Shown: positions 3,584 through 34,776 of the stretch, piece by piece
Layout: each line of letters opens with the position of its first letter
How positions within the stretch are numbered: the first letter of the stretch is position 1
DNA from: Desulfobacterales bacterium
GTDB lineage: Bacteria > Desulfobacterota > Desulfobacteria > Desulfobacterales > Desulfobacteraceae
Direction of reading: 5' to 3'
NCBI GenBank assembly: GCA_019038815.1
Contig: JAHOYS010000258.1
Span: forward strand, 1 to 34,776
DNA length: 34,776 nt
Program-made: the position numbers and the translations under genes
The notes under the pieces: model-generated
The model's input: only the letters and a program-made list of their open reading frames with translations
Told to the model about the DNA's origin: nothing
The model's database searches: none

Positions 3584-4633
3584 TCATCTATAAATTTTTG
3601 TTTTTTGTAATTCTTTAAACAGAGCATCTGCACCATATTTAATTAACATATCATTCCAGTCTTTACAACCTTTTGATGGGTGAATATATTCAATATTTCC
3701 CCTCGACATTCTAGATAACAAATATTCACATATTTTCTTAGCGGCTCTGATTCCTACCATATCATTATCGAGTGCTACAACAAACTTATAATTTTTAATT
3801 AGACTGTATTGTTTTAAACTAATCTCTGCACAGCCCAAAGCCACTCCATTGAGTCCTACTATGGATATTGCCTTTGCGTCGAACTCACCCTCTGTTATGT
3901 AGATTGTAGAACCATCTGTCGGCCACGTCCCAGCCATATATACCACGTCGCTCTTACCGGGAGAATTTAACCCTTTAGTTGGGGCCAAATATTTTGGTGG
4001 TCCTTCATATTTCTTCATCTTAACAATATCCATATATCTGCCGTTAAAATAAACCAATTTACCCTCTGGGTCATAATAAGGAATTATAATTCTATTCGCA
4101 TGTTTACCTCTAGAGCAAATATACATCTCATCAATAGGTAGGCAGCGACCATTAAGTAGGCAGCGACCATTAAGTATACCAACAGCCTTATCCCTCATGT
4201 GAGACTCTACAGTGTCCTCTCCTGAAGGTATATCGGTAAGCTTGTAGGTGTGCTCGGGTAAATTTATTTTAACCTGAGTGAAACCACAGACAATCTCATC
4301 ACTCATCTTTGCTTCTAACGCCCAACGATATGACATATAATCTGGATTGCTGTGATTGTCCACATACCTGCCTTCACCACAAACTTTTGCCATAGCTTCT
4401 TTTTTACTACAGCCATCTATTTCCATAATTAAATGATATAACCTTTTGCCACTACCCTTACGACTCACCTGACAAAAAAAAGTTCCTTTTTCCACATTAA
4501 TATATAGCTTCTTTTTCCTTGACTCACAATGAGGAGAAACTGAATAAAGCTCAGTGCCATTATCTTTTACTTCTCCAAAATTAGATTCCATATAGTTCAA
4601 AACTTTGTCTTTATTATATTCTTCATTCATCAT
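3584..4633 (-). CDS. DnaG-like TOPRIM primase, 349 aa
   Basis: This is probably the phage primase that makes RNA primers for replication with the neighbouring helicase. The TOPRIM domain is clear: ITEGEFDA (about 246-253) carries the catalytic glutamate, VVALDND (285-291) the DxD-type metal site, and KDWNDML (324-330) is typical of phage primases. The N-terminal zinc-ribbon position reads SPHC (33-36) and FFCQVS (52-57), so two of the usual four cysteines are replaced and zinc binding may be altered or lost. An in-frame duplication gives LNGRCLLNGRCL at about 154-165. It lies downstream of the helicase gene and upstream of the 14-bp repeats. Confidence 0.85.
   Translation of the reverse strand: MMNEEYNKDKVLNYMESNFGEVKDNGTELYSVSPHCESRKKKLYINVEKGTFFCQVSRKGSGKRLYHLIMEIDGCSKKEAMAKVCGEGRYVDNHSNPDYMSYRWALEAKMSDEIVCGFTQVKINLPEHTYKLTDIPSGEDTVESHMRDKAVGILNGRCLLNGRCLPIDEMYICSRGKHANRIIIPYYDPEGKLVYFNGRYMDIVKMKKYEGPPKYLAPTKGLNSPGKSDVVYMAGTWPTDGSTIYITEGEFDAKAISIVGLNGVALGCAEISLKQYSLIKNYKFVVALDNDMVGIRAAKKICEYLLSRMSRGNIEYIHPSKGCKDWNDMLIKYGADALFKELQKTKIYR
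4139..4174. repeat. In-frame tandem duplication, 2 x 18 bp, in the primase gene
   Basis: TAGGCAGCGACCATTAAG occurs twice in a row. It adds six residues (LNGRCL) between the zinc-ribbon-like region and the TOPRIM domain without breaking the frame. Confidence 0.95.
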
Positions 4634-4832: not shown

Positions 4833-6518
4833 TCAACGACCTTTTTTTTCAAGCAACGTTTCTCTGTAATATACATCAGGTATTGATGCATTTTTAGATA
4901 GGTTCATTTGACATATTTTTATTTTTTCTTTCAACCTTATCAGGGTGTTAGTCATCAACGTTTTAGTCATGTTTTTAATCTTCTTTTCAGGTTTACATGT
5001 TTTAGGATTTTTATATTCAGTGACGTATTTTATATTTAATTTTTGTAAATCTGACTTAGAAACGCCGGTGTCTCTATTTACCTCAGATGCGGTTAGTATT
5101 GGAATATGTTTAAGCAACGCATTTTCTTGCAAGGAGTTTTCTTCGTCCTTTTCTTTATGCTTTTCTCCAGCAACGGTGCCCTCATATTCAAGAATTAGAT
5201 TAGACTTATTATTTTTAAGTTCAATAGATTTTGTTTTAATTATTATTTCTGGTAGTATTGGTGTAGATTTTGTTTTTATGTATTTTAAATTAAGTTTAGA
5301 TGGTGAACCTTTTGTTTCAAAGGTCCAGTGGATATCAGCATTTAAAGCACCACTGCCTCTGGGGCCAGAGCCAGCGTTGTTGGTGTGATGGATTATTATT
5401 ACTGTAGCACCATCCCACATACGTTTTAATTCATCTGCGACGTTAACAAATATACCCATGGCTGCTGAATCATTTTCACTTATCCCACCCCAACATCTAT
5501 GAAGCGTATCAATGATTACTAATTTTGGAGTAACTTTTGGGTGCTTCTTTTTCAATGCATCAACAAACATTCTGGCTAGGTTCGGAGTTTCAACAAAGTT
5601 TTCTGGTCTATCATATACAATAAAGTCATCATTCGCCAGAACATATTTGTTTGCCTTTTCCCAAGCCTGCCTTCTTTCTTTGATTTCGTGTTGACCTTCT
5701 GCTGCAATATAAAATACGGAGCCTATATGGGAATTATTAACTTTATATTTGCCCAGGAATGGTAGCCCTGAGCATACACTACAAGCCATGTGGCCAGCTA
5801 GATAGGATTTTAACGTACCGGACATACCATAAATCATTCCAAGAGTATCATTATGGAAGAAGTCCTTTATAATCCATTCTTTATCCTCCATATCATCTTG
5901 TTTTTTCTTGTCTAATATGTGGTTAGACATGTTATCTTTAGAAGATAAATTCATAATTGTAGACATATTACTTAGATGAGTCTCATAATCATCTACAGTT
6001 ATTTTTTCTCCTTCATCAGTTTTTACATTTATTAATCTATCAAATTCTCTACGCTCTTCACTGATACTCCTATCTCTTATAAACTCATCTATATGGTCAG
6101 TAATATAGAGTGTAGTGCCCTCTGTAAGTGGGTTAGAGAGAATTTTCTCTAGTTGGTGAGTTGCCTCTGATATTAGGGTATGAGCGTTATCTTCTAATTT
6201 AAAATGATTTCTTATCTCTTTAATAATAATCTTTTTTTCAGGAAGACCGGGATATTTATCATTAAAATCATGTGCAATTTTTACAAAGAGAGCTTGATTG
6301 CTATTTTTAAAAATGCCCGGTTTATCTAAATAAATTAGATTTGCGGTATTAGATGCGTCGGTAAGAATGACTGTACATACATCAAACGGGTCATACTGAA
6401 TTCTTCTTTCTTTAATTTCTTCTTCGTCTAAATCAAAAGTGGGTTCGTGATTTTCTACTAATTTAATATTTGCCTTAGACGCTTTGTACATCTCCTCAAA
6501 TTCATTTTTACTTTCCAT
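4833..6518 (-). CDS. RepA/AAA_25-type replicative helicase ATPase, 561 aa
   Basis: The ATPase core resembles RecA-fold helicases of the RepA/AAA_25 family, which form hexamers and unwind DNA at the fork. From the ATG at 6518: Walker A GMSGTLKS (about 231-238), Walker B KLVIIDTLHR (about 332-341), and sensor VIIIHHTN followed by GPRGSGAL (about 373-393). The N-terminal 200 residues have no recognised motif and may bind a partner or primase. The ATG at 6518 is chosen because GGAGG precedes it; it overlaps the end of the small upstream gene. With the primase it forms the replication module; no DNA polymerase is visible, so host polymerase is probably used. Confidence 0.85.
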   Translation of the reverse strand: MESKNEFEEMYKASKANIKLVENHEPTFDLDEEEIKERRIQYDPFDVCTVILTDASNTANLIYLDKPGIFKNSNQALFVKIAHDFNDKYPGLPEKKIIIKEIRNHFKLEDNAHTLISEATHQLEKILSNPLTEGTTLYITDHIDEFIRDRSISEERREFDRLINVKTDEGEKITVDDYETHLSNMSTIMNLSSKDNMSNHILDKKKQDDMEDKEWIIKDFFHNDTLGMIYGMSGTLKSYLAGHMACSVCSGLPFLGKYKVNNSHIGSVFYIAAEGQHEIKERRQAWEKANKYVLANDDFIVYDRPENFVETPNLARMFVDALKKKHPKVTPKLVIIDTLHRCWGGISENDSAAMGIFVNVADELKRMWDGATVIIIHHTNNAGSGPRGSGALNADIHWTFETKGSPSKLNLKYIKTKSTPILPEIIIKTKSIELKNNKSNLILEYEGTVAGEKHKEKDEENSLQENALLKHIPILTASEVNRDTGVSKSDLQKLNIKYVTEYKNPKTCKPEKKIKNMTKTLMTNTLIRLKEKIKICQMNLSKNASIPDVYYRETLLEKKGR

Positions 6519-6721
6519 TATTTTCCTCCGGCCACTCATTCTCGTAATGATAACTATCTGAATCTATCAGTATAGAGTCAATTGGTTCTATTGGTTCTAT
6601 TGGTTCTATAGTTTTTATGGGGGGGAAGTTGAGGGGTTTCGTCTGGTAGAGTAAGTTGTTGTAGATATTTGATGTAAGCGTCACCGACAGCATCTATTTG
6701 TTTTTTTGTAAATTTTTTCAT
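6508..6721 (-). CDS. Small gene split by a C7 tract (needs +1 shift)
   Basis: The ATG at 6721 follows GCAGGAAG. The frame reads MKKFTKKQIDAVGDAYIKYL and reaches a run of seven C (6625-6619). In the present frame it then gives a low-complexity NYRTNRTNRTN tail and stops at 6578. With one base fewer, or a +1 shift at CCC-C, it continues as PIKTIEPIEPIEP and then an acidic, aromatic tail to the stop at 6508, which overlaps the helicase start. The longer 70-aa product looks more natural. Phase variation, programmed +1 shifting and a sequencing error are all possible. Confidence 0.5.
6581..6607. repeat. Tandem repeat, 3 x 9 bp
   Basis: ATTGGTTCT is repeated three times. On the minus strand this encodes IEP repeats in the +1 frame, or RTN repeats in the unshifted frame, of the split gene. 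Confidence 0.9.
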
Positions 6722-6747
6722 TTTCGCACTTCCTGCCGCACCTTCGT

Positions 6748-6807
6748 TTAAAAAAAATGTGCTGGCCACCAGCACCGAAAGTGCGAGTAAAGAATGCTGG
6801 TGGCCAT
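6748..6807 (-). CDS. Putative 19-aa leader peptide of the replication operon
   Basis: A short ORF starts with ATG at 6807, shortly after the predicted transcription start, with AAGG about ten bases upstream. It encodes MATSILYSHFRCWWPAHFF and stops right at the end of the terminator U run. Its codons overlap both arms of the attenuator, and a tandem Trp pair lies in the terminator stem and loop, as in amino-acid-sensing leaders. Translation is not proven; the ORF could be a by-product of the hairpin sequence. Confidence 0.4.
   Translation of the reverse strand: MATSILYSHFRCWWPAHFF
6750..6806 (-). promoter_or_regulatory. Attenuator-like leader with competing hairpins
   Basis: On the minus-strand transcript, 6806-6795 (TGGCCACCAGCA) is perfectly complementary to 6774-6763 over 12 bp, an antiterminator-type pairing. 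The second arm also forms a 7-bp terminator stem (GTGCTGG 6775-6769 with CCAGCAC 6765-6759) followed by A and eight T (6757-6750). The two are mutually exclusive. A further pair, 6786-6779 with 6731-6724, could cover the ribosome site of the next gene. Confidence 0.65.
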
Positions 6808-6821
6808 TACTGCACTACCTT

Positions 6822-6849
6822 AATATAGACTTCTCAAATTTTTTATCAA
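6822..6849 (-). promoter_or_regulatory. Leftward promoter of the replication operon
   Basis: TTGATA (6849-6844) and TATATT (6827-6822) are 16 bp apart on the minus strand. Transcription would start near 6815 and pass through the attenuator into the split gene, helicase and primase. Confidence 0.65.
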
Positions 6850-6907
6850 CGGAAAAATAAAATAATAATTATATTAAAATAAAAACAACTTTTCTAGATT
6901 TTTTAAC

Positions 6908-6935
6908 TTGGCGCTAGATTTCAGATTGGTACAAT
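6908..6935 (+). promoter_or_regulatory. Rightward promoter of the 94-aa gene
   Basis: TTGGCG (6908-6913) and TACAAT (6930-6935) are 16 bp apart, about 35 bp before the ATG at 6970. With the leftward promoter at 6822-6849 it forms a divergent control region. Confidence 0.5.
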
Positions 6936-6969
6936 GTTTTTTGCTTACTGTATTTTTTAGGAGTAAAAA

Positions 6970-7254
6970 ATGAACGCATTTACAAACGTCACCTATCTAC
7001 TAACCGAAATAGACTGCATTCGGACCTGTATCAAAAAGACATCAAGGGCAAGAGGTTTCATAATCGCTATGATGGATGGGTTTATTGAGGCATTTCAAGA
7101 ACACACCAAGGAGGCCATTTTAGAAGCGCTACCGCCTGATGAGGGCACAGGAGAGCCACGAGAGGCTCTAAAAGAAATTTACAAGTCACTACGTGATAGC
7201 ATTATGATTTTAGATGAGTCTGCATCGTATCCAGAATGGGAAAATATTACATAG
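6970..7254 (+). CDS. Hypothetical protein, 94 aa
   Basis: This is the first gene of the plus-strand block. It has a strong AGGAG site six bases before the ATG, an upstream promoter and an intrinsic terminator 34 bases after its stop, so it is a single-gene transcription unit. The sequence (MNAFTNVTYLLTEIDCIRTC at the start) is mostly helical with an acidic C-terminal half; I recognise no family. Its position opposite the replication operon is where early regulators or anti-host proteins often lie, but no motif supports a specific role. Confidence 0.65.
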   Translation: MNAFTNVTYLLTEIDCIRTCIKKTSRARGFIIAMMDGFIEAFQEHTKEAILEALPPDEGTGEPREALKEIYKSLRDSIMILDESASYPEWENIT

Positions 7255-7322: not shown

Positions 7323-7350
7323 TTGACTTTATATAAAATTTTGGTATACT
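7323..7350 (+). promoter_or_regulatory. Promoter of a putative small RNA
   Basis: TTGACT (7323-7328) and TATACT (7345-7350) are 16 bp apart. Only about 40 bases of transcript lie between the likely start near 7357 and the next terminator stem. Confidence 0.7.
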
Positions 7351-7356
7351 GTATAT

Positions 7357-7412
7357 AACAACAGTAAGTTGATGAATTACGAAGGAATGCCCGGCTTGTT
7401 GCCGGGTTTTTT
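7357..7412 (+). ncRNA. Candidate small RNA, about 56 nt
   Basis: A good promoter is followed directly by a complete intrinsic terminator (CCCGGC 7390-7395, loop TTGTT, GCCGGG 7401-7406, then six T). No credible gene fits between them, so the expected product is a short RNA with a roughly 33-nt unpaired 5' part (AAGTTGATGAATTACGAAGG lies in it). A tiny ORF beginning inside it would read through the terminator. Expression and targets are unknown. Confidence 0.5.
7390..7412 (+). terminator. Terminator of the putative small RNA
   Basis: A 6-bp GC-rich stem (7390-7395 with 7401-7406), a 5-base loop and six T. The first 94-bp repeat copy begins exactly at the loop (7396), so the second repeat copy carries only the right arm. 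Confidence 0.8.
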
Positions 7413-7489
7413 CTTGATAAAAATTTTTATTTTTTCTGGATTTTTTTATTCTAGCTGCTATACTATACATGTAGAGAAAAATACTTTGA
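7396..7489. repeat. 94-bp direct repeat, copy 1
   Basis: This is identical over 94 bp to 7960-8053. It contains the right arm and T run of the small-RNA terminator, a very T-rich stretch and an extended -10 promoter element. Copy 1 precedes the 7512-7910 small genes and copy 2 precedes the 8088-8766 genes. Confidence 0.95.
7456..7464 (+). promoter_or_regulatory. Extended -10 promoter, copy 1
   Basis: TGCTATACT matches TGn-TATACT, the extended -10 form that does not need a strong -35. It is preceded by a long T-rich tract that could act as an UP-like element. Confidence 0.5.
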
Positions 7490-7959: not shown

Positions 7960-8053
7960 TTGTTGCCGGGTTTTTTCTTGATAAAAATTTTTATTTTTTC
8001 TGGATTTTTTTATTCTAGCTGCTATACTATACATGTAGAGAAAAATACTTTGA
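7960..8053. repeat. 94-bp direct repeat, copy 2
   Basis: This is identical to 7396-7489. Here the left arm of the terminator is missing, so the copy should not terminate transcription but keeps the promoter-like element. Confidence 0.95.
8020..8028 (+). promoter_or_regulatory. Extended -10 promoter, copy 2
   Basis: The same TGCTATACT element in the second 94-bp copy, about 60 bp before the ATG at 8088. The preserved identity suggests recent duplication of a promoter cassette. Confidence 0.5.
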
Positions 8054-8595: not shown

Positions 8596-8766
8596 ATGAA
8601 TTATAAACTAGCATTTAATGAACAAGAATTAAATATCATAATCAAGGCCCTAGGCGAGATGCCGTACAAATTTTCTGCCCAAGTGCTGGATAAAATTCAA
8701 AAAGTTATTAATGAATCTTTAGCTGAATCTTTAGCTGAAGCTACAACTGAATCCAGCGAGGGCTAA
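8596..8766 (+). CDS. Small hypothetical phage protein, 56 aa
   Basis: The ATG at 8596 has AAAGGAG at good spacing. The product begins MNYKLAFNEQELNIIIKALG and continues EMPYKFSAQVLDKIQ, a helical pattern I know from many small uncharacterised phage proteins. A 12-bp duplication (8713-8736) repeats ESLA near the end. It is the last gene of the plus-strand block and its 3' end overlaps the minus-strand membrane gene by 26 bp, tail to tail. Confidence 0.7.
   Translation: MNYKLAFNEQELNIIIKALGEMPYKFSAQVLDKIQKVINESLAESLAEATTESSEG
8713..8736. repeat. Tandem repeat, 2 x 12 bp
   Basis: GAATCTTTAGCT occurs twice in a row, giving an in-frame ESLA duplication near the C-terminus of the 56-aa protein. 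Confidence 0.85.
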
Positions 8767-12601: not shown

Positions 12602-13869
12602 TAGACCATCCTTATGTAATTTAAACTTTTCAGTTCGCTCATCCAAAGGTTCATTTGGTTTTCTGCTTTGTTATAATCTTGCAGCATAAGATTCTTAAAA
12701 GCCTGCATAGACTCTTCTATTCCCTTCCTGCTATTACAAGTTGAATTCATGCCCATGTATACATTTTGCTGTGCTGGGGGAACTGCTGTAGGTTCAATCT
12801 CGGGCCTTTCTGGACCTCCGGGTCCAGCAGCACCAGTTTTACCTACTGGACCTGACGCCCCGCCTCCAAAAGCTTTTGGATTACGTGGCTCCCCCTTATC
12901 AGTTATTAATTTTTTACTAACCAAATAATCTTTCATAGCATTAAAGAAATCAAAACCAACGCCTTTTTCTTCATCATCTTCTATTCCAAATAAGCTTTTA
13001 ATCCAATCTCCGATTGAATTAAAAACATCTCCTATTGCATCCCAAACTTTCCCTAGTAGACCACCAACCCAAGTAAACAAATCAAGAATTTTACCCAAAA
13101 CCCATAAAATTGGTTTAAGCACATTTACCAGCAAAGTTATAATCCTAGCCAAACCACTCAACACGGCACCTAGGAATTTCCAAACTGGTCCCAACTCATC
13201 AAATACCTCAGTTAAAGCTTCTATAACTTCGAAAAATCCTTCGAATAGCGGGGCCATTGAATTGCCCAGCTTAACAGCAAAATGTTGGAGATGTACTTGG
13301 TGTTTCAAAAATACTTTAGCCGTTGCTGCGGACCATTTGCTAAGCTTAGAAGCCAAACCATACAATGCAGCCGATAAAATTAGTGCAAATTTCCATATTT
13401 TTTTAATTGCTTTACCAAATCCGCCAAATATTTTACCAAATTTTCTAAAAATATTAGAAAAAGTTTTACCAAATTTTCCAAAAATACTTTTAATATTTTT
13501 GGAAAATTTGGTAAAACTTTTTTTAACTTTCTCAGTATCATAGTCAATCTCCATTACTGGTCTTTTAACAATATCAGTACCACCGCCACCGCCACCGGCC
13601 CCGGCTGTACCACTTAACGTCTGCCCCCCCATACCACCAGCAACACCATAAGCAATCCCCCCAGCAACAGCAGCACTAGCGGCACCAGCACTAGCGGCAC
13701 CAGCACCAGCCGCAGCCGCAGCAGTTCCAGCACCTATAGCACCGCCTATAGCAGCGCCACCAGCAGCCGACGCCCCTCCACCTTTGCGTTTGGTATCATC
13801 TCCAACACCTTGACCACCTTTAATGCCGTCGGCTTCGAATTCTAGTTTTACACGGTATGTTTTAGCCAT
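12601..13869 (-). CDS. Tape measure-like protein, 422 aa
   Basis: An Ala/Gly-rich stretch (about 30-95) is followed by amphipathic Lys/Phe helices (KSFTKFSKNIKSIFGKFGKT), several hydrophobic segments between about 165 and 275, and a Gly/Pro collagen-like stretch near 335-360. Helical, hydrophobic composition and the place between tail chaperones and distal tail fit a tape measure protein. It is short for that family: at about 1.5 angstrom per residue the tail would be about 60 nm. It is possible that the two preceding genes are also tail tip or terminator proteins. Confidence 0.65.
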   Translation of the reverse strand: MAKTYRVKLEFEADGIKGGQGVGDDTKRKGGGASAAGGAAIGGAIGAGTAAAAAGAGAASAGAASAAVAGGIAYGVAGGMGGQTLSGTAGAGGGGGGTDIVKRPVMEIDYDTEKVKKSFTKFSKNIKSIFGKFGKTFSNIFRKFGKIFGGFGKAIKKIWKFALILSAALYGLASKLSKWSAATAKVFLKHQVHLQHFAVKLGNSMAPLFEGFFEVIEALTEVFDELGPVWKFLGAVLSGLARIITLLVNVLKPILWVLGKILDLFTWVGGLLGKVWDAIGDVFNSIGDWIKSLFGIEDDEEKGVGFDFFNAMKDYLVSKKLITDKGEPRNPKAFGGGASGPVGKTGAAGPGGPERPEIEPTAVPPAQQNVYMGMNSTCNSRKGIEESMQAFKNLMLQDYNKAENQMNLWMSELKSLNYIRMV

Positions 13870-29645: not shown

Positions 29646-30326
29646 TTAACTGCGAAATTCTGTATAATCCTTAGTCTTTAACCACTTCCTTCTCAGTCGT
29701 CTGAATTTTCTTCGGTCCATACTCGTTTTAAAAGAATCCTCATTGGCTTCCATAAGGTCATCAGAATTATGAAGCCGCCACTCATGTTTAATAATGCATT
29801 TATCTATAAATTTTTGTTTTCCCTCAGTTACGATTGTTAAAAAGTTGTCACAACAGTGCGTGGTAAAGTCTGGATGATATAAATGAGTCATACCGTCATA
29901 CATCCGGCGTCCCATTATGGTCAGCGTGCAGATGTTTCTTTGTCTGTTATCGAAGTACCATAGCAACCCATCTAAATCGGGAAAATACTTCTCCATATCA
30001 TTCCTAATAATATCATCATACCCTTTTATCTGAGGTATTTGGTCGTCAGATACTAACACCACTATGTCCCAAGGTGTGTCTGGCACATCTGAATTGCAAG
30101 CTTCAATCTTTGTTTTACTATTCCCAAACTTTATAGAACAATTTTTAAGAGATTTAACAAACTCAATGATATTGTCATTGTTCATAGAGTCGTCCCCCCG
30201 GTCGGCAGATACTACAAATTCATAATCATCTTTATTTGTCATAAACTCTAAGTACTTGGTAATAGTAGACTTAAACAGTTCTGGACGACTTCTAGTTGGG
30301 TACTTTAGAAGCAATTTTAATCCCAT
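29646..30326 (-). CDS. Putative GT-A glycosyltransferase, 226 aa
   Basis: The product starts MGLKLLLKYPTRSRPELFKS, a GT-A-like first strand. IVVLVSDDQIPQIKGYDD (about 88-105) sits at the DXD position, and FTTHCCDNFLTIV further on matches the conserved C-terminal Asp region of such enzymes. The substrate is unknown. AAAAGGAG precedes the ATG. A short 72-bp gap before it contains an 8-codon ORF with a good site that I do not count as a gene. Confidence 0.6.
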   Translation of the reverse strand: MGLKLLLKYPTRSRPELFKSTITKYLEFMTNKDDYEFVVSADRGDDSMNNDNIIEFVKSLKNCSIKFGNSKTKIEACNSDVPDTPWDIVVLVSDDQIPQIKGYDDIIRNDMEKYFPDLDGLLWYFDNRQRNICTLTIMGRRMYDGMTHLYHPDFTTHCCDNFLTIVTEGKQKFIDKCIIKHEWRLHNSDDLMEANEDSFKTSMDRRKFRRLRRKWLKTKDYTEFRS

Positions 30327-30398
30327 TTTTTCTCCTTTTTTAATTTATCTAATTTGGTCTTTAAACGGCATAACAACTCCTTAATAAATAAGTTTATA

Positions 30399-31115
30399 TT
30401 ATACCTTATTCCAACCTAAAATACCAGTTAAAACATCATCCGGGTGAAACACTGGTTTTTTATATCTTTCTAAATATTTAAGTTGTTCATCAACACTGTG
30501 CCCAGACTTAATGACGCTCTCTTTGTATTCGGGTTTGTTCGTTCTATCTATTGGCATACTCGGATGATACGATTCATAATAACCGTCCTTGAAGAAGGTG
30601 AAACCCGTCACAAATAATTCTTTAATTTTAAACTGCATCAAATAGTCAATCGCCAACGTGCCCGTACAAGGTTCACCCTGTGTCGCATTCCTGATTTGTT
30701 TATGTATATCTAGTGGGATATAGACAAGTGTGAAATCATTATATTTATTATTAATTTCTTCCAGAGCAGCATATTGTTTTTGTGTAAATCTTGTATATGC
30801 AGGATGATGAACAACTATATATTTCAACCCACTAGCCTTAGCCGGTATATAATAATTTATATAAACATCTTCCATACGCTCTTTGTAATCCTCCTTACGA
30901 GAATTGTGGCACATATAATCCTCGGCCAGACCAGTAATTAATATGTCTGTACGAAGTCCTATGTCTTTATGAAGCTCTTCCGGTGCCGGAAGAGCTGAAT
31001 TCATACGTACAACAATATCATATGAATCTATGAGTTGTCCAGAATCCTTAAGAGACGGGGATGGACCAACAAGACATATTTTCTTTCCATATAAATCTGC
31101 CACAATGCTATTCAT
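30399..31115 (-). CDS. Sialyltransferase-like protein (GT29-type motifs), 238 aa
   Basis: The stretch CLVGPSPSLKDSGQLIDSYD (14-33) followed by IVVRMNSALP and DIGLRTDILI matches the L-motif of GT29 sialyltransferases (VGNGPSL...ID.YD.V.R.N..P...DVG.RT). CTGTLAIDYLMQF (150-162), then VTGFTFF, matches the S-motif (STG..AI..AL), and a late His (206) is present. These enzymes transfer sialic or related nonulosonic acids from CMP donors. The ATG at 31115 is chosen by ATGA overlap with the 29-aa ORF and AAGGGG. Confidence 0.65.
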   Translation of the reverse strand: MNSIVADLYGKKICLVGPSPSLKDSGQLIDSYDIVVRMNSALPAPEELHKDIGLRTDILITGLAEDYMCHNSRKEDYKERMEDVYINYYIPAKASGLKYIVVHHPAYTRFTQKQYAALEEINNKYNDFTLVYIPLDIHKQIRNATQGEPCTGTLAIDYLMQFKIKELFVTGFTFFKDGYYESYHPSMPIDRTNKPEYKESVIKSGHSVDEQLKYLERYKKPVFHPDDVLTGILGWNKV

Positions 31116-31201
31116 TTGACCCCTTTGCGTCTTTTTATATGACAATCCTTACTAAAACTACTCTTCTCTAACAATAGTTCACAACCTATACATTCTTTCA
31201 T
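31112..31201 (-). CDS. Small Cys-containing protein, 29 aa
   Basis: The ATG at 31201 has AAGGAG at good spacing, and the stop overlaps the next start (ATGA). The product is MKECIGCELLLEKSSFSK plus DCHIKRRKGVK: a CxxC, a later Cys-His pair and a basic end, as in one half of a zinc finger. The strong ribosome site and coupling make it a likely real gene; its role may be to couple translation or to bind metal. Confidence 0.55.
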   Translation of the reverse strand: MKECIGCELLLEKSSFSKDCHIKRRKGVK

Positions 31202-31240
31202 ATCATCTCCTTAAACCAAAATTATAACATAATTTTAATC

Positions 31241-31786
31241 CTATTTCCATAAGCCAATGTATAAAGTATGGTCACCTTGGAGACCCTCGCTATACATATA
31301 AATATCAGTTATATCTGAGTACTCCTCAAGCTTAACTGTCCACCAGCCCTGACTATTGGCTGAAGGATGAAGCGTCTTACCGTCTTCTGTCCTGTAGCAT
31401 GTCTCCTTCTTGAAGCATACTGTCACGAAGTACCTCTCGCTTACTCGTTTCATCTCCCTTAAGGAAGCGTCAACTTTCTCCTCATCCAAGTGCTCTAAAA
31501 CATCGAAAGACGTACACATATCAAACTCTTTATCTTTGAATGGAAGGTCATGGGCTGAAGCTATTACATCAGCACTTGGACATGCTATGTCTACACCGAC
31601 TTTATCTTTGTCAGATGCCATTGGATAACCCTTCACAAACTCATTGTGACCGCAGCCAATGTCTATAATACTCTTCGGAAAGAGCTTTAAAAGCTTTTGA
31701 AGATGGTCCCTACTATGGTTATCTGAGCCATATTTGCCGTATTTTGCTTGGTTATTATAAATATATTCATAGTCTTCTTTACTCAT
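31241..31786 (-). CDS. Class I SAM-dependent methyltransferase, 181 aa
   Basis: The Methyltransf_11-type motifs are present: IIDIGCGHNEFVKGYPMA (motif I, about 36-53), VGVDIACPSADVIAS (post I), LPFKDKEFDMCTSFDVLEHL (motif II/III, about 82-101). The enzyme transfers a methyl group from SAM to a small molecule or sugar. In this block it may methylate a glycan. AGAGGA lies upstream of the ATG. Confidence 0.8.
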   Translation of the reverse strand: MSKEDYEYIYNNQAKYGKYGSDNHSRDHLQKLLKLFPKSIIDIGCGHNEFVKGYPMASDKDKVGVDIACPSADVIASAHDLPFKDKEFDMCTSFDVLEHLDEEKVDASLREMKRVSERYFVTVCFKKETCYRTEDGKTLHPSANSQGWWTVKLEEYSDITDIYMYSEGLQGDHTLYIGLWK

Positions 31787-31807
31787 AATCTATATTCCTC
31801 TTAATTT

Positions 31808-31951
31808 TTATAAGTGGTCGTTAAAATAATCAACGCCTGTGATTGCGTTTGACGCCAAAAAGCAACTCTGTTTGCCCAAAATTATATGATTACATGTTTT
31901 ACTAATCGGTATTAGCCCACCGAGATATTCGATATCAAATTTTTTACTCAT
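31808..31951 (-). CDS. Small hypothetical protein, 47 aa
   Basis: The ATG at 31951 overlaps the stop of the 112-aa gene and has GGAGGAG at good spacing. The product begins MSKKFDIEYLGGLIPISK, contains TCNHIILGKQSCFLAS and ends in GVDYFNDHL. It carries two Cys about 12 residues apart. Its size and position two genes after a radical SAM enzyme make it a candidate peptide substrate, but nothing more supports this. Confidence 0.6.
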   Translation of the reverse strand: MSKKFDIEYLGGLIPISKTCNHIILGKQSCFLASNAITGVDYFNDHL

Positions 31952-32282
31952 AATCATTCTCCTCCATGTTTTTAAATTCTAAATAAGTTGTTGATAATTC
32001 CAACGCCCGTTCATCGTGAAAAATGTTCTCAAACATAGCAATGACTTCTAATTTTCGGCACACCTCGCCATTATATTCTGAGACATCTCCAGTCATGACT
32101 GTATTTATTTCAATCTCACTACAGGTAAAGTGCTCATAACCCTCAACGGGACAAATACAGTGCAGAAAATCACACTCTATTTTTTCGTTTCGATTATCAA
32201 TTTGGTCTACACCGTCTTCATAATCGAAAGTGAGAATCAGATGTTCTTCTAAACTGTCCTTCAATCGCCCCACTTCTCCCAT
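31944..32282 (-). CDS. Cys-containing hypothetical protein next to the radical SAM gene, 112 aa
   Basis: The likely ATG at 32282 lies 22 bp inside the radical SAM gene with AGGAAG upstream; longer in-frame starts and a TTG a few codons later are alternatives. The protein is acidic, with ECDFLHCICPVEGYEHFTCS near residue 35 (four Cys and two His). It may bind metal or be a partner or substrate of the radical SAM enzyme. Family not recognised. Confidence 0.5.
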   Translation of the reverse strand: MGEVGRLKDSLEEHLILTFDYEDGVDQIDNRNEKIECDFLHCICPVEGYEHFTCSEIEINTVMTGDVSEYNGEVCRKLEVIAMFENIFHDERALELSTTYLEFKNMEENDYE

Positions 32283-32899
32283 CGCTTCTTCCTCGCCCAT
32301 GGACAAATGACACACAATTGTCCACATTTTTGTATCTCTTTTTTCCAATTATCCGTTACTTCTATACACGTATCTGTGTCTAAGCCCGGACCTGCACAAC
32401 AAGAATATAATCGCCCCTCAAATAAAACGGGACCAATATCTAATCTTTCACAAGCTTGGTCTCTACCTGTCATGTCTGGAAACTGGACATGAACAACGTC
32501 GCCAATTGTAAGTTTTTCTTCAGGCACAATTGTCTGAATATATTGGCATAATTTTTCGTTGTCTTTACAGCCTTCATAAGTTTTTGAGGAATAATGACTT
32601 ACATTTACTTGGTCAAACAACTCAAATGCTTTTTCATTTCCTTTTATCTTGAAACCATCTGTCTGTAGAATTAGTGTCTTAGGTCTATATAGTTTTATAA
32701 ATGTTTTTATATATTTATAAAATTGTTTATGAATTGTAGGTTCACCACCAGTTATAACTACTTCTTCCATATCCTGAAAGTACTTAGAATATTTTTCTAA
32801 ATAATCAAAATCATTATCATGTTTAAATTCGTTATAAGCCGTTCCTAGACTGCACCAATGGCAAGTTCGGTTGCACCTGCTCGTTATACTAAACTGCAT
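32261..32899 (-). CDS. Radical SAM protein with SPASM/Twitch-like C-terminus, 212 aa
   Basis: The radical SAM cluster motif CNRTCHWC (C9, C13, C16; CxxxCxxC) and the SAM-binding VVITGGEP (47-54) are intact. The C-terminal part has seven more Cys (150, 167, 168, 178, 192, 196, 199), including GRLYSCCAGPGLD and CGQLCVICPWA, as in SPASM or Twitch domains that hold auxiliary iron-sulfur clusters. Such enzymes modify peptides, sugars or small molecules by radical chemistry. It lacks other queuosine genes nearby, so QueE is unlikely. AAGGAGGA sits about 35 bases before the ATG, too far for normal initiation. Confidence 0.8.
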   Translation of the reverse strand: MQFSITSRCNRTCHWCSLGTAYNEFKHDNDFDYLEKYSKYFQDMEEVVITGGEPTIHKQFYKYIKTFIKLYRPKTLILQTDGFKIKGNEKAFELFDQVNVSHYSSKTYEGCKDNEKLCQYIQTIVPEEKLTIGDVVHVQFPDMTGRDQACERLDIGPVLFEGRLYSCCAGPGLDTDTCIEVTDNWKKEIQKCGQLCVICPWARKKRWEKWGD

Positions 32900-32920
32900 T
32901 TTATCTGTTCTTAAAAGAAT

Positions 32921-32947
32921 TTTTATCCTCCTTTTATCCTCCTTTTA
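32921..32947. repeat. Tandem repeat, 2 x 11 bp plus partial
   Basis: TTTTATCCTCC is repeated, with a further TTTTA. On the minus strand it doubles an AAAGGAGG Shine-Dalgarno sequence between the glycosyltransferase and radical SAM genes, though too far from the ATG at 32899 for normal use. Confidence 0.85.
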
Positions 32948-33631
32948 CACTCCTGATGCTACTAAGACATAACCCTTAGTATCGGGTGGCCCATATGTTA
33001 ATAATTTATTTTTACTTGTATCTGTGAATTTCATTTCGAGCTTAGAAGCAATCACGGATGCTATTGACTGGTCATGACGGTGCCCTAAGCATCTCTCATC
33101 AGCCGAGCACTGTCGTCTATCGTTCTTCCACGGGCCTGAGAATACTTCTTTATTTTTACTATATTCATACCAAGTATAAAAGAAGTCCTGACAGATGGAA
33201 GTAGTAAAGTCAAAGCCCATGACGTTAGCCATAGCATGAGGCAAATCCATTGCTTCATCTCTCGTCAAATTCATTATTTCCAATGACTTATCTGTCATCC
33301 AGTTCCCAGTGTTCCAACCATTCTGTTGAAGATAATACCCCTGTTCATCGATTATATCCCAGATAGCATCTAGCCGCTTCGTTACAACACAGCCTGCATC
33401 TATCCAAAGAACTTGCTCATACCCTTGGACTCGTGCGATATTAATAACAAATGGTTTAAATCCGTAATTAATTTCTTGATGTGTTGGGCACCCTTCTGGG
33501 TACTCTGTATAAAACTTCATCTCGCCTATGTGATAATCAAGAACACTTCTTCGCAATTTTCCAAGGGCATTTCGGTATCGTCTCGAACCTTCATCATCTA
33601 TTCCTAAACTTATTACAATACGTTTTTTCAT
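32945..33631 (-). CDS. Putative glycosyltransferase (GT-A-like), 228 aa
   Basis: YEQVLWIDAGCVVTKRLDAI (about 72-91) has the DxG/DxD-type donor site of nucleotide-sugar transferases, and CLGHRHDQSIASVIASKL (about 178-195) matches their conserved HDQ..AS acceptor-side motif. The enzyme probably adds a sugar within the block. A good AAGGAGAAGG ribosome site precedes the ATG. Confidence 0.65.
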   Translation of the reverse strand: MKKRIVISLGIDDEGSRRYRNALGKLRRSVLDYHIGEMKFYTEYPEGCPTHQEINYGFKPFVINIARVQGYEQVLWIDAGCVVTKRLDAIWDIIDEQGYYLQQNGWNTGNWMTDKSLEIMNLTRDEAMDLPHAMANVMGFDFTTSICQDFFYTWYEYSKNKEVFSGPWKNDRRQCSADERCLGHRHDQSIASVIASKLEMKFTDTSKNKLLTYGPPDTKGYVLVASGV

Positions 33632-34436: not shown

Positions 34437-34737
34437 TAGATTTATTGATTACATTCTGGATGCCTTCTTTCTGTCGTTCTGTGGCTCGCACATCAGTTAC
34501 ATACTGTTGACATAACTCAACTATTTCTTTAAGAACTGTACTGTGATATTCGCCGTCATAGGTGCCTATGACGGCATCTCTGAAATAAATATCACTTAGT
34601 GTGTAAAAAACATCCATGTACTCGATTGAGTAAACTAGGCCCCACTTATTTTTATATACGTCTACCGCATATTTCCCCTGCTCCAATGGCAATCTTTCTA
34701 TTTTGTCAATCTTTAAATATAATTTTTCTGTATTCAT
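34381..34737 (-). CDS. Hypothetical protein with repeat-encoded C-terminus, 118 aa
   Basis: The protein starts MNTEKLYLKIDKIERLPL and is an alpha/beta domain without a motif I recognise. The last about 17 residues come from the 11-bp repeat array, so they would change with copy number. The ATG lies 15 bases inside the terminal overlap with AAGGATAAAGATAA before it. Across the junction it follows the 26-aa ORF. Its role in the modification block is unknown. Confidence 0.6.
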   Translation of the reverse strand: MNTEKLYLKIDKIERLPLEQGKYAVDVYKNKWGLVYSIEYMDVFYTLSDIYFRDAVIGTYDGEYHSTVLKEIVELCQQYVTDVRATERQKEGIQNVINKSTLALKTLALKTSVTLALH

Positions 34738-34776
34738 TTATCTTTATCCTTTATTTAGTTTATGCTCCTGATGCTA
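34722..34776. repeat. Terminal direct repeat, right copy (circular assembly overlap)
   Basis: This is an exact copy of bases 1-55. Joining the ends makes the minus-strand operon continuous from the 26-aa ORF at 34-114 into the 118-aa gene at 34381-34737. Confidence 0.95.

Follow-up and report, generated by a model that had tools for sequence, protein, structure and literature searches.

Leader RNAs that govern DNA replication in phages have, to our knowledge, been described mainly for satellites of the P4 type and for prophages of enterobacteria. A short RNA lying upstream of the ribosome site of a small ORF, complementary to this site and carried by the same transcript, is also found in phages P1 and P7, where it constitutes the C4 antisense RNA. 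In the Gifsy-1 prophage, the isrK RNA has two alternative folds, with predicted values of -85.66 and -84.21 (Hershko-Shalev et al. 2016, PMC4825925). As outlined for P4 in the same paper, transcription of the replication genes is terminated prematurely through pairing of the CI RNA to two sites. Finally, trp leaders carry their control codons in region I, which precedes the competing II:III and III:IV pairs (PMC1183508).

Genomic context of the leader

The window analysed here is an entire contig of 34,776 nt from a metagenome-type assembly (2.8 Mb in 415 contigs). Its two ends carry a 55-nt direct repeat (1-55 = 34722-34776), so the contig probably closes to a circle, and it is most likely a complete phage genome. 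Protein searches identified terminase, portal, HK97-type capsid, tape-measure and tail proteins, as well as an AAA_25/RepA-like helicase and a Toprim primase, both encoded in a leftward replication cluster; none of the proteins searched was recognisable as an integrase or a repressor. The genome also contains a block of glycosyltransferase, methyltransferase and radical-SAM-like genes (29646-33631) and, within the tape-measure ORF, a perfect 29-bp inverted repeat with a 7-nt loop (13458-13522).

Searches of the phage collection retrieved no close known phage. The nearest relatives are three metagenomic contigs (L087, L088 and L099; portal 51-56% and terminase 57-62% identity), which are collinear with the window in the structural module only, end before the replication region, and together define a small phage group. 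The structural module of L088 shows 42-74% protein identity to the window, and two of the three contigs share the sample code 3300035698. When relatives were sought by helicase, none carrying the replication region was found in viral_contigs, genome_contigs, phages, 97 relatives or 389 genomes of the order; further searches with terminase, capsid, portal and primase led to no relatives but the three contigs above. At the DNA level, the leader has no counterpart in the phages collection and only short low-complexity matches in 86 genomes of the family. Recurring CAGCACATTTTTTTTAAA matches were, wherever they could be inspected, unrelated host DNA, and the two occurrences of the exact stem pattern in viral_contigs lie inside or overlap coding sequence of unrelated phages. 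The leader folds described below are thus predictions from one genome.

The first gene of the replication operon, hereafter gene 1, is read in two frames that join at a C7 tract (6625-6619), the second frame overlapping the helicase start (ATG 6518). A one-base change in this minus-strand tract would part the two frames of one protein of about 70 aa, and the split could reflect a sequencing error, slippage or phase variation.

The leader lies between a sigma70-like promoter and gene 1 (Table 1). The -10 element of this promoter ends at 6822 and the expected +1, G6815, is located exactly 7 nt further; no other site of the TTGAYA/TATAWT type in the intergenic region is as good. As promoter-type matches are only about 1.8 times as numerous as expected from shuffles, both the promoter at 6849-6822 and a start near 6815 are putative. 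Elsewhere in the genome, a perfect 94-nt direct repeat on the plus strand (7396-7489 and 7960-8053) resembles a promoter module that was duplicated: it carries one half of a terminator (GCCGGG-T6) together with a promoter-like element of the extended -10 type, TGCTATACT. At 7323-7413 of the plus strand, TTGACT-16-TATACT is followed by a 7-bp stem and T6; this second unit of promoter and terminator would yield a short RNA of about 55 nt from the strand opposite to the leader.

Table 1. Positions of the leader elements and of the replication genes in the window.
Feature	Position	Strand	Basis or detail
Toprim DNA primase	3584..4633	-	protein searches
AAA_25 / RepA-like replicative helicase	4833..6539	-	protein searches
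Gene 1 of the replication operon, small, uncharacterised, two frames	6508..6721	-	start ATG 6721
Shine-Dalgarno AGGAAG of gene 1 (ATG 6721)	6729..6734	-	-7.0 kcal/mol with anti-Shine-Dalgarno
CGAAGGUGCGG, fold B partner of the loop segment; imperfect direct repeat of 6724-6733	6736..6746	-	folding
19-codon ORF MATSILYSHFRCWWPAHFF	6748..6807	-	ATG 6807, TAA 6750-6748
U8 tract	6750..6757	-	sequence
7-bp terminator hairpin B7, GUGCUGG-UGG-CCAGCAC	6759..6775	-	-11.2 kcal/mol
Hairpin A 3' arm UGCUGGUGGCCA	6763..6774	-	sequence, shuffles, folding
Loop segment UCGCACUUUCG, partner 6736-6746 in fold B or 6724-6733	6776..6786	-	folding, shuffles
UUCUU, partner AGGAA 6730-6734 (Shine-Dalgarno) in fold B	6790..6794	-	folding
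Hairpin A 5' arm UGGCCACCAGCA	6795..6806	-	sequence, shuffles, folding
GUGC at predicted 5' end, lower stem of hairpin A with GCAC 6759-6762	6812..6815	-	minimum-energy fold
Predicted promoter TTGATA-16-TATATT	6822..6849	-	10/12 matches
Second, weaker promoter-like site TAGAAA-17-TATAAT	6868..6896	-	prediction; start about 6861

Two mutually exclusive hairpins and a predicted terminator

Hairpin A is a perfect 12-bp inverted repeat (6806-6795/6774-6763) with a 20-nt loop. None of 1000 dinucleotide shuffles reached 12 bp, the shuffle maximum being 10 bp, and the 66-nt leader up to the U8 tract is far more stable than its shuffled versions (-29.3 versus -14.1 +/- 2.5 kcal/mol, z -5.97). The second hairpin, B7, has a stem at 6775-6769/6765-6759 and a UGG loop, and is followed by one A and then by U8. 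Such a GC-rich stem with a U run at once behind it is the hallmark of intrinsic terminators, and B7 plus U8 is indeed predicted as one, on the correct strand. As B7 uses bases of the 12-bp arm, the two hairpins are mutually exclusive. Termination of the RNA at U8 in vivo would be expected from this signature.

U8 is one of only four T8 tracts on the minus strand. Another of these sits behind an 11-bp terminator stem at 3001-2977, where, on the minus strand, the terminator stem and T8 come immediately after a hairpin of 10 bp with a loop of 20 nt (3044-2977), a plan like that of the leader.

The four nucleotides GUGC at the predicted 5' end add a lower stem to hairpin A, which contributes about 4.6 kcal/mol (from -22.6 to -27.2). 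In an RNA ending at U8, hairpin A has a predicted probability near 1 and its lower stem one of 0.985, while the 7-bp hairpin is near 0 and stays absent unless the 5' arm of hairpin A is blocked. Because GUGC (6815-6812) pairs with the GCAC adjoining the U run, hairpin A is itself terminator-like; since it is also formed at U8, naming it an antiterminator would be unsafe.

A predicted second fold masking the Shine-Dalgarno sequence

For leaders of 97-100 nt, folding yields two structures, A and B, which have no base pair in common. In fold B, B7 is enclosed by two pairings, 6794-6790 with 6734-6730 and 6786-6776 with 6746-6736. The predicted energies are -32.4 kcal/mol for A and -31.5 kcal/mol for B, 0.9 kcal/mol higher, on a calculation that leaves aside pseudoknots, proteins and kinetics; A forms first, and conversion to B may never take place. 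A second fold of this stability occurs in 0.1% of 1000 shuffles and in five of 1388 natural 100-nt segments of this genome (0.36%), four of these five starting inside tape-measure/tail and large coding ORFs with higher GC. The Shine-Dalgarno sequence of gene 1 is mostly free in fold A and mostly paired in fold B. With a start at 6815, the predicted equilibrium is about 58% A and 42% B; it stays near balance for starts at 6817-6806 and moves toward B for starts at 6850-6822 or after 6803.

The loop of hairpin A can also pair directly with the Shine-Dalgarno region, through eight Watson-Crick pairs (6786-6779/6724-6731) that extend to 10 bp with one G-U (6786-6777/6724-6733) and overlap part of AGGAAG. 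The duplex between loop and downstream leader is unusual both against shuffles (P 0.0025) and against random phage 19-mers (P 0.0046). The energy of fold B stands out only mildly (P 0.035) in shuffles that are confined to the loop and the downstream part of the leader and leave B7 fixed. Given these two values (0.0025 for the duplex and 0.035 for fold B given B7), we regard hairpin A and the terminator as firm structures, and the coupling of leader refolding to the Shine-Dalgarno sequence as likely rather than firm.

A first-pass annotation of this DNA had described the 12-bp pairing (6795-6806/6763-6774) and the 7-bp stem with its eight U as mutually exclusive, had noted a 19-codon ORF near the 5' end that ends at the U run and carries Trp-Trp in the terminator stem and loop, and had named the downstream genes helicase and primase. 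The minus-strand check and the protein searches agree with all of this, and the pairing that it placed over the next ribosome site (6779-6786/6724-6731) is real and, at 10 bp, longer than thought. Absent from that description were the GUGC/GCAC lower stem of hairpin A and the complete second fold of near-equal energy.

Comparison with known leaders

Of the systems outlined above, the isrK leader would be the nearest working analogue. Both loci combine a promoter, a short RNA running to an intrinsic terminator, and a small ORF that is reached by read-through and tied to the gene behind it, a transcription pattern that is predicted for the present leader. Both also have two folds of near-equal predicted energy that differ in access to the ribosome site of the small ORF, and share control at this site, which in our case is likewise predicted. 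They differ in their targets, as isrK controls an antirepressor and an antiterminator whereas the leader described here precedes a helicase and a primase. The likeness to the P4 CI RNA and its seqA and seqC sites, as far as PMC4825925 describes them, consists in a short leader RNA located before replication genes and carrying a segment complementary to two repeated sites; here the complementarity amounts to 10-11 bp with 6746-6736 and 6733-6724 (duplex P 0.0025). However, in that description CI is released from the transcript by processing and is located between the P4 sites (PMC4825925), whereas in the present leader both sites are downstream, an intrinsic terminator would set the end of the short RNA, and no lysogeny genes were recognised. 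Similarly, as in C4 of P1 and P7, a leader segment is located upstream of the gene 1 ribosome site and complementary to it, within one transcript, but the C4 model failed to match the leader at E values up to 10.

More generally, a cmscan search of 6580-6980 against Rfam, extended to E 10, returned neither isrK nor C4 nor any other phage leader family, and there was no match at the gathering threshold. The YenS match (24.8 of 80 bits) and other matches far below threshold were discarded as chance similarities of AT-rich sequence. Because none of these families was matched even at E 10, membership by homology is not proposed: if our model is right, the leader would work like the isrK and P4 CI leaders without being a homologous member. 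These two precedents also mean that the rarity of such control in phages, claimed in the first-pass annotation, was overstated.

Proposed mechanism

We consider the leader to be real, probably functional, and of attenuator type. More specifically, we tentatively favour a cis-acting, two-state leader RNA that would limit expression of the helicase/primase operon, and assign to this reading a probability of roughly 0.45. Transcription would begin at about 6815 and hairpin A would form first in the nascent RNA, its stem, completed by the 5' GUGC, reaching U8. Part or most of the transcripts would stop at U8 (6757-6750), releasing an RNA of about 60-66 nt, and read-through transcripts would keep a leader of about 95 nt in fold A or fold B. 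In fold A the Shine-Dalgarno sequence of gene 1 would be largely open; in fold B, B7 would be formed and the loop would be paired to the downstream leader, with the AGGAA of the Shine-Dalgarno sequence also sequestered. Occupying or removing the 5' arm of hairpin A would then drive the RNA into fold B, so that transcription would terminate and the ribosome site would be masked, both decisions being set to off for the operon. Candidate blockers of this arm are an RNA, a protein, another start site or, possibly, a ribosome that occupies the initial codons of the leader ORF. This direction of the switch is the one that we infer from the modelled folds.

Alternative explanations

The main competitor is a plain promoter-proximal intrinsic terminator, passed either with the help of a timed phage or host antitermination factor, as with lambda N and Q, or by constant leakage; fold B and the match between loop and Shine-Dalgarno region would then be side effects of repeated GUGC words. 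The canonical hairpin followed by U8 fits this explanation, hairpin A with its lower stem would suffice as a terminator, and fold B adds little once B7 is given (P 0.035). However, the second exclusive fold (P 0.001) and the match of the loop to the Shine-Dalgarno region (P 0.0025) would both be unnecessary in a plain terminator, and none of the proteins searched could be recognised as an antiterminator, although such proteins often escape recognition. We regard this explanation as unlikely.

Less probable still is an action in trans, in which the 20-nt loop of the short RNA would bind the leader sites 6746-6736 and 6733-6724 and block or open gene 1 in the manner of P4 CI or isrK, thereby controlling copy number or excluding a second phage. 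The short RNA would indeed display UCGCACUUUC in its loop and match, over 10-11 bp, two imperfect direct repeats located downstream, one of them over the Shine-Dalgarno sequence, and the small gene 1 overlaps the helicase start in a way that recalls orf45 before anrP in isrK (PMC4825925). Yet the loop matches its own neighbourhood equally well in cis, and cofolding of the short RNA with its target favours other contacts. Moreover, an immunity role finds no support, because neither an integrase nor a repressor could be recognised in the set of proteins searched. We likewise give only a slim chance to a combined scheme, in which an RNA of about 100 nt would couple termination to site masking while its 66-nt product would regulate copy number or superinfection through the leader.

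The hairpin might also serve mainly to stop run-on transcription from the late operon, which ends at 8741, before it enters the replication operon. The search for leftward terminators yielded no good one between 8500 and 6775, but transcripts from the only good promoter of the replication operon would also have to pass the hairpin and would be stopped as well, and both the competing fold and the Shine-Dalgarno match would be superfluous, which makes this function very unlikely.

Classical ribosome-mediated attenuation through a Trp-Trp leader peptide, the translation-coupled control originally suggested for this leader, fares even worse. With trp-type attenuators the leader shares exclusive hairpins, a U-run terminator and a short ORF with tandem Trp codons (PMC1183508), and this ORF extends across both hairpins. 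However, its length is at chance level, as 39% of the shuffles with an ATG in their first 20 nt hold an ORF of at least 19 codons, and the stem sequence entails UGGUGG in one of its three frames, so that the ORF is probably incidental. From a start at 6815 its 5' UTR would be 8 nt long (GUGCAGUA) and devoid of a Shine-Dalgarno sequence (-1.4 kcal/mol); an AAGG located 10 nt before the ATG would be in favour of translation if the upstream promoter were used, but it lies within the main promoter and would be transcribed only from the weaker site at 6896-6868.

The geometry is also wrong. Instead of preceding the competing arms, as in trp-type leaders, the control codons are inside the terminator (6771-6769 in the B7 stem and 6768-6766 in its loop), and the ORF ends at the U run. 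Folding with a ribosome on the leader, a check put forward in the first-pass annotation, shows B7 forming only with the ribosome on codons 1-6, which would switch A to B7. With the ribosome on codons 10-17, Trp codons included, both hairpins are lost, and with the ribosome at the stop codon hairpin A re-forms without its lower stem, the terminator being still blocked. As stalled and stop-codon ribosomes both prevent the terminator, fast and slow reading of the Trp codons have the same outcome, and we therefore rejected Trp sensing. Besides, trp-type leaders precede genes that make the sensed amino acid, whereas this operon encodes a helicase and a primase with no link to tryptophan. Of the attenuator-like leader initially proposed upstream of the replication genes, the exclusive hairpins, the terminator signature and possibly the masking of the ribosome site are thus retained, while coupling to translation of the Trp-Trp ORF, which we consider hardly credible, is not. 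In a weaker variant, initiation on the leader ORF may possibly favour termination.

Finally, a cluster of operators in which the five RGTGC words present in 97 nt (6816, 6776, 6742, 6731 and, inverted, 6779) would bind a DNA-level repressor, the hairpins being a by-product, is just as improbable, as the spacing is irregular, no repressor gene was recognised, and the perfect 12-bp stem and U8 would remain unexplained.

If the cis-acting two-state leader is confirmed, RNA-level control of replication would extend to a phage group far from those in which it is known, and to a phage without recognisable lysogeny genes.
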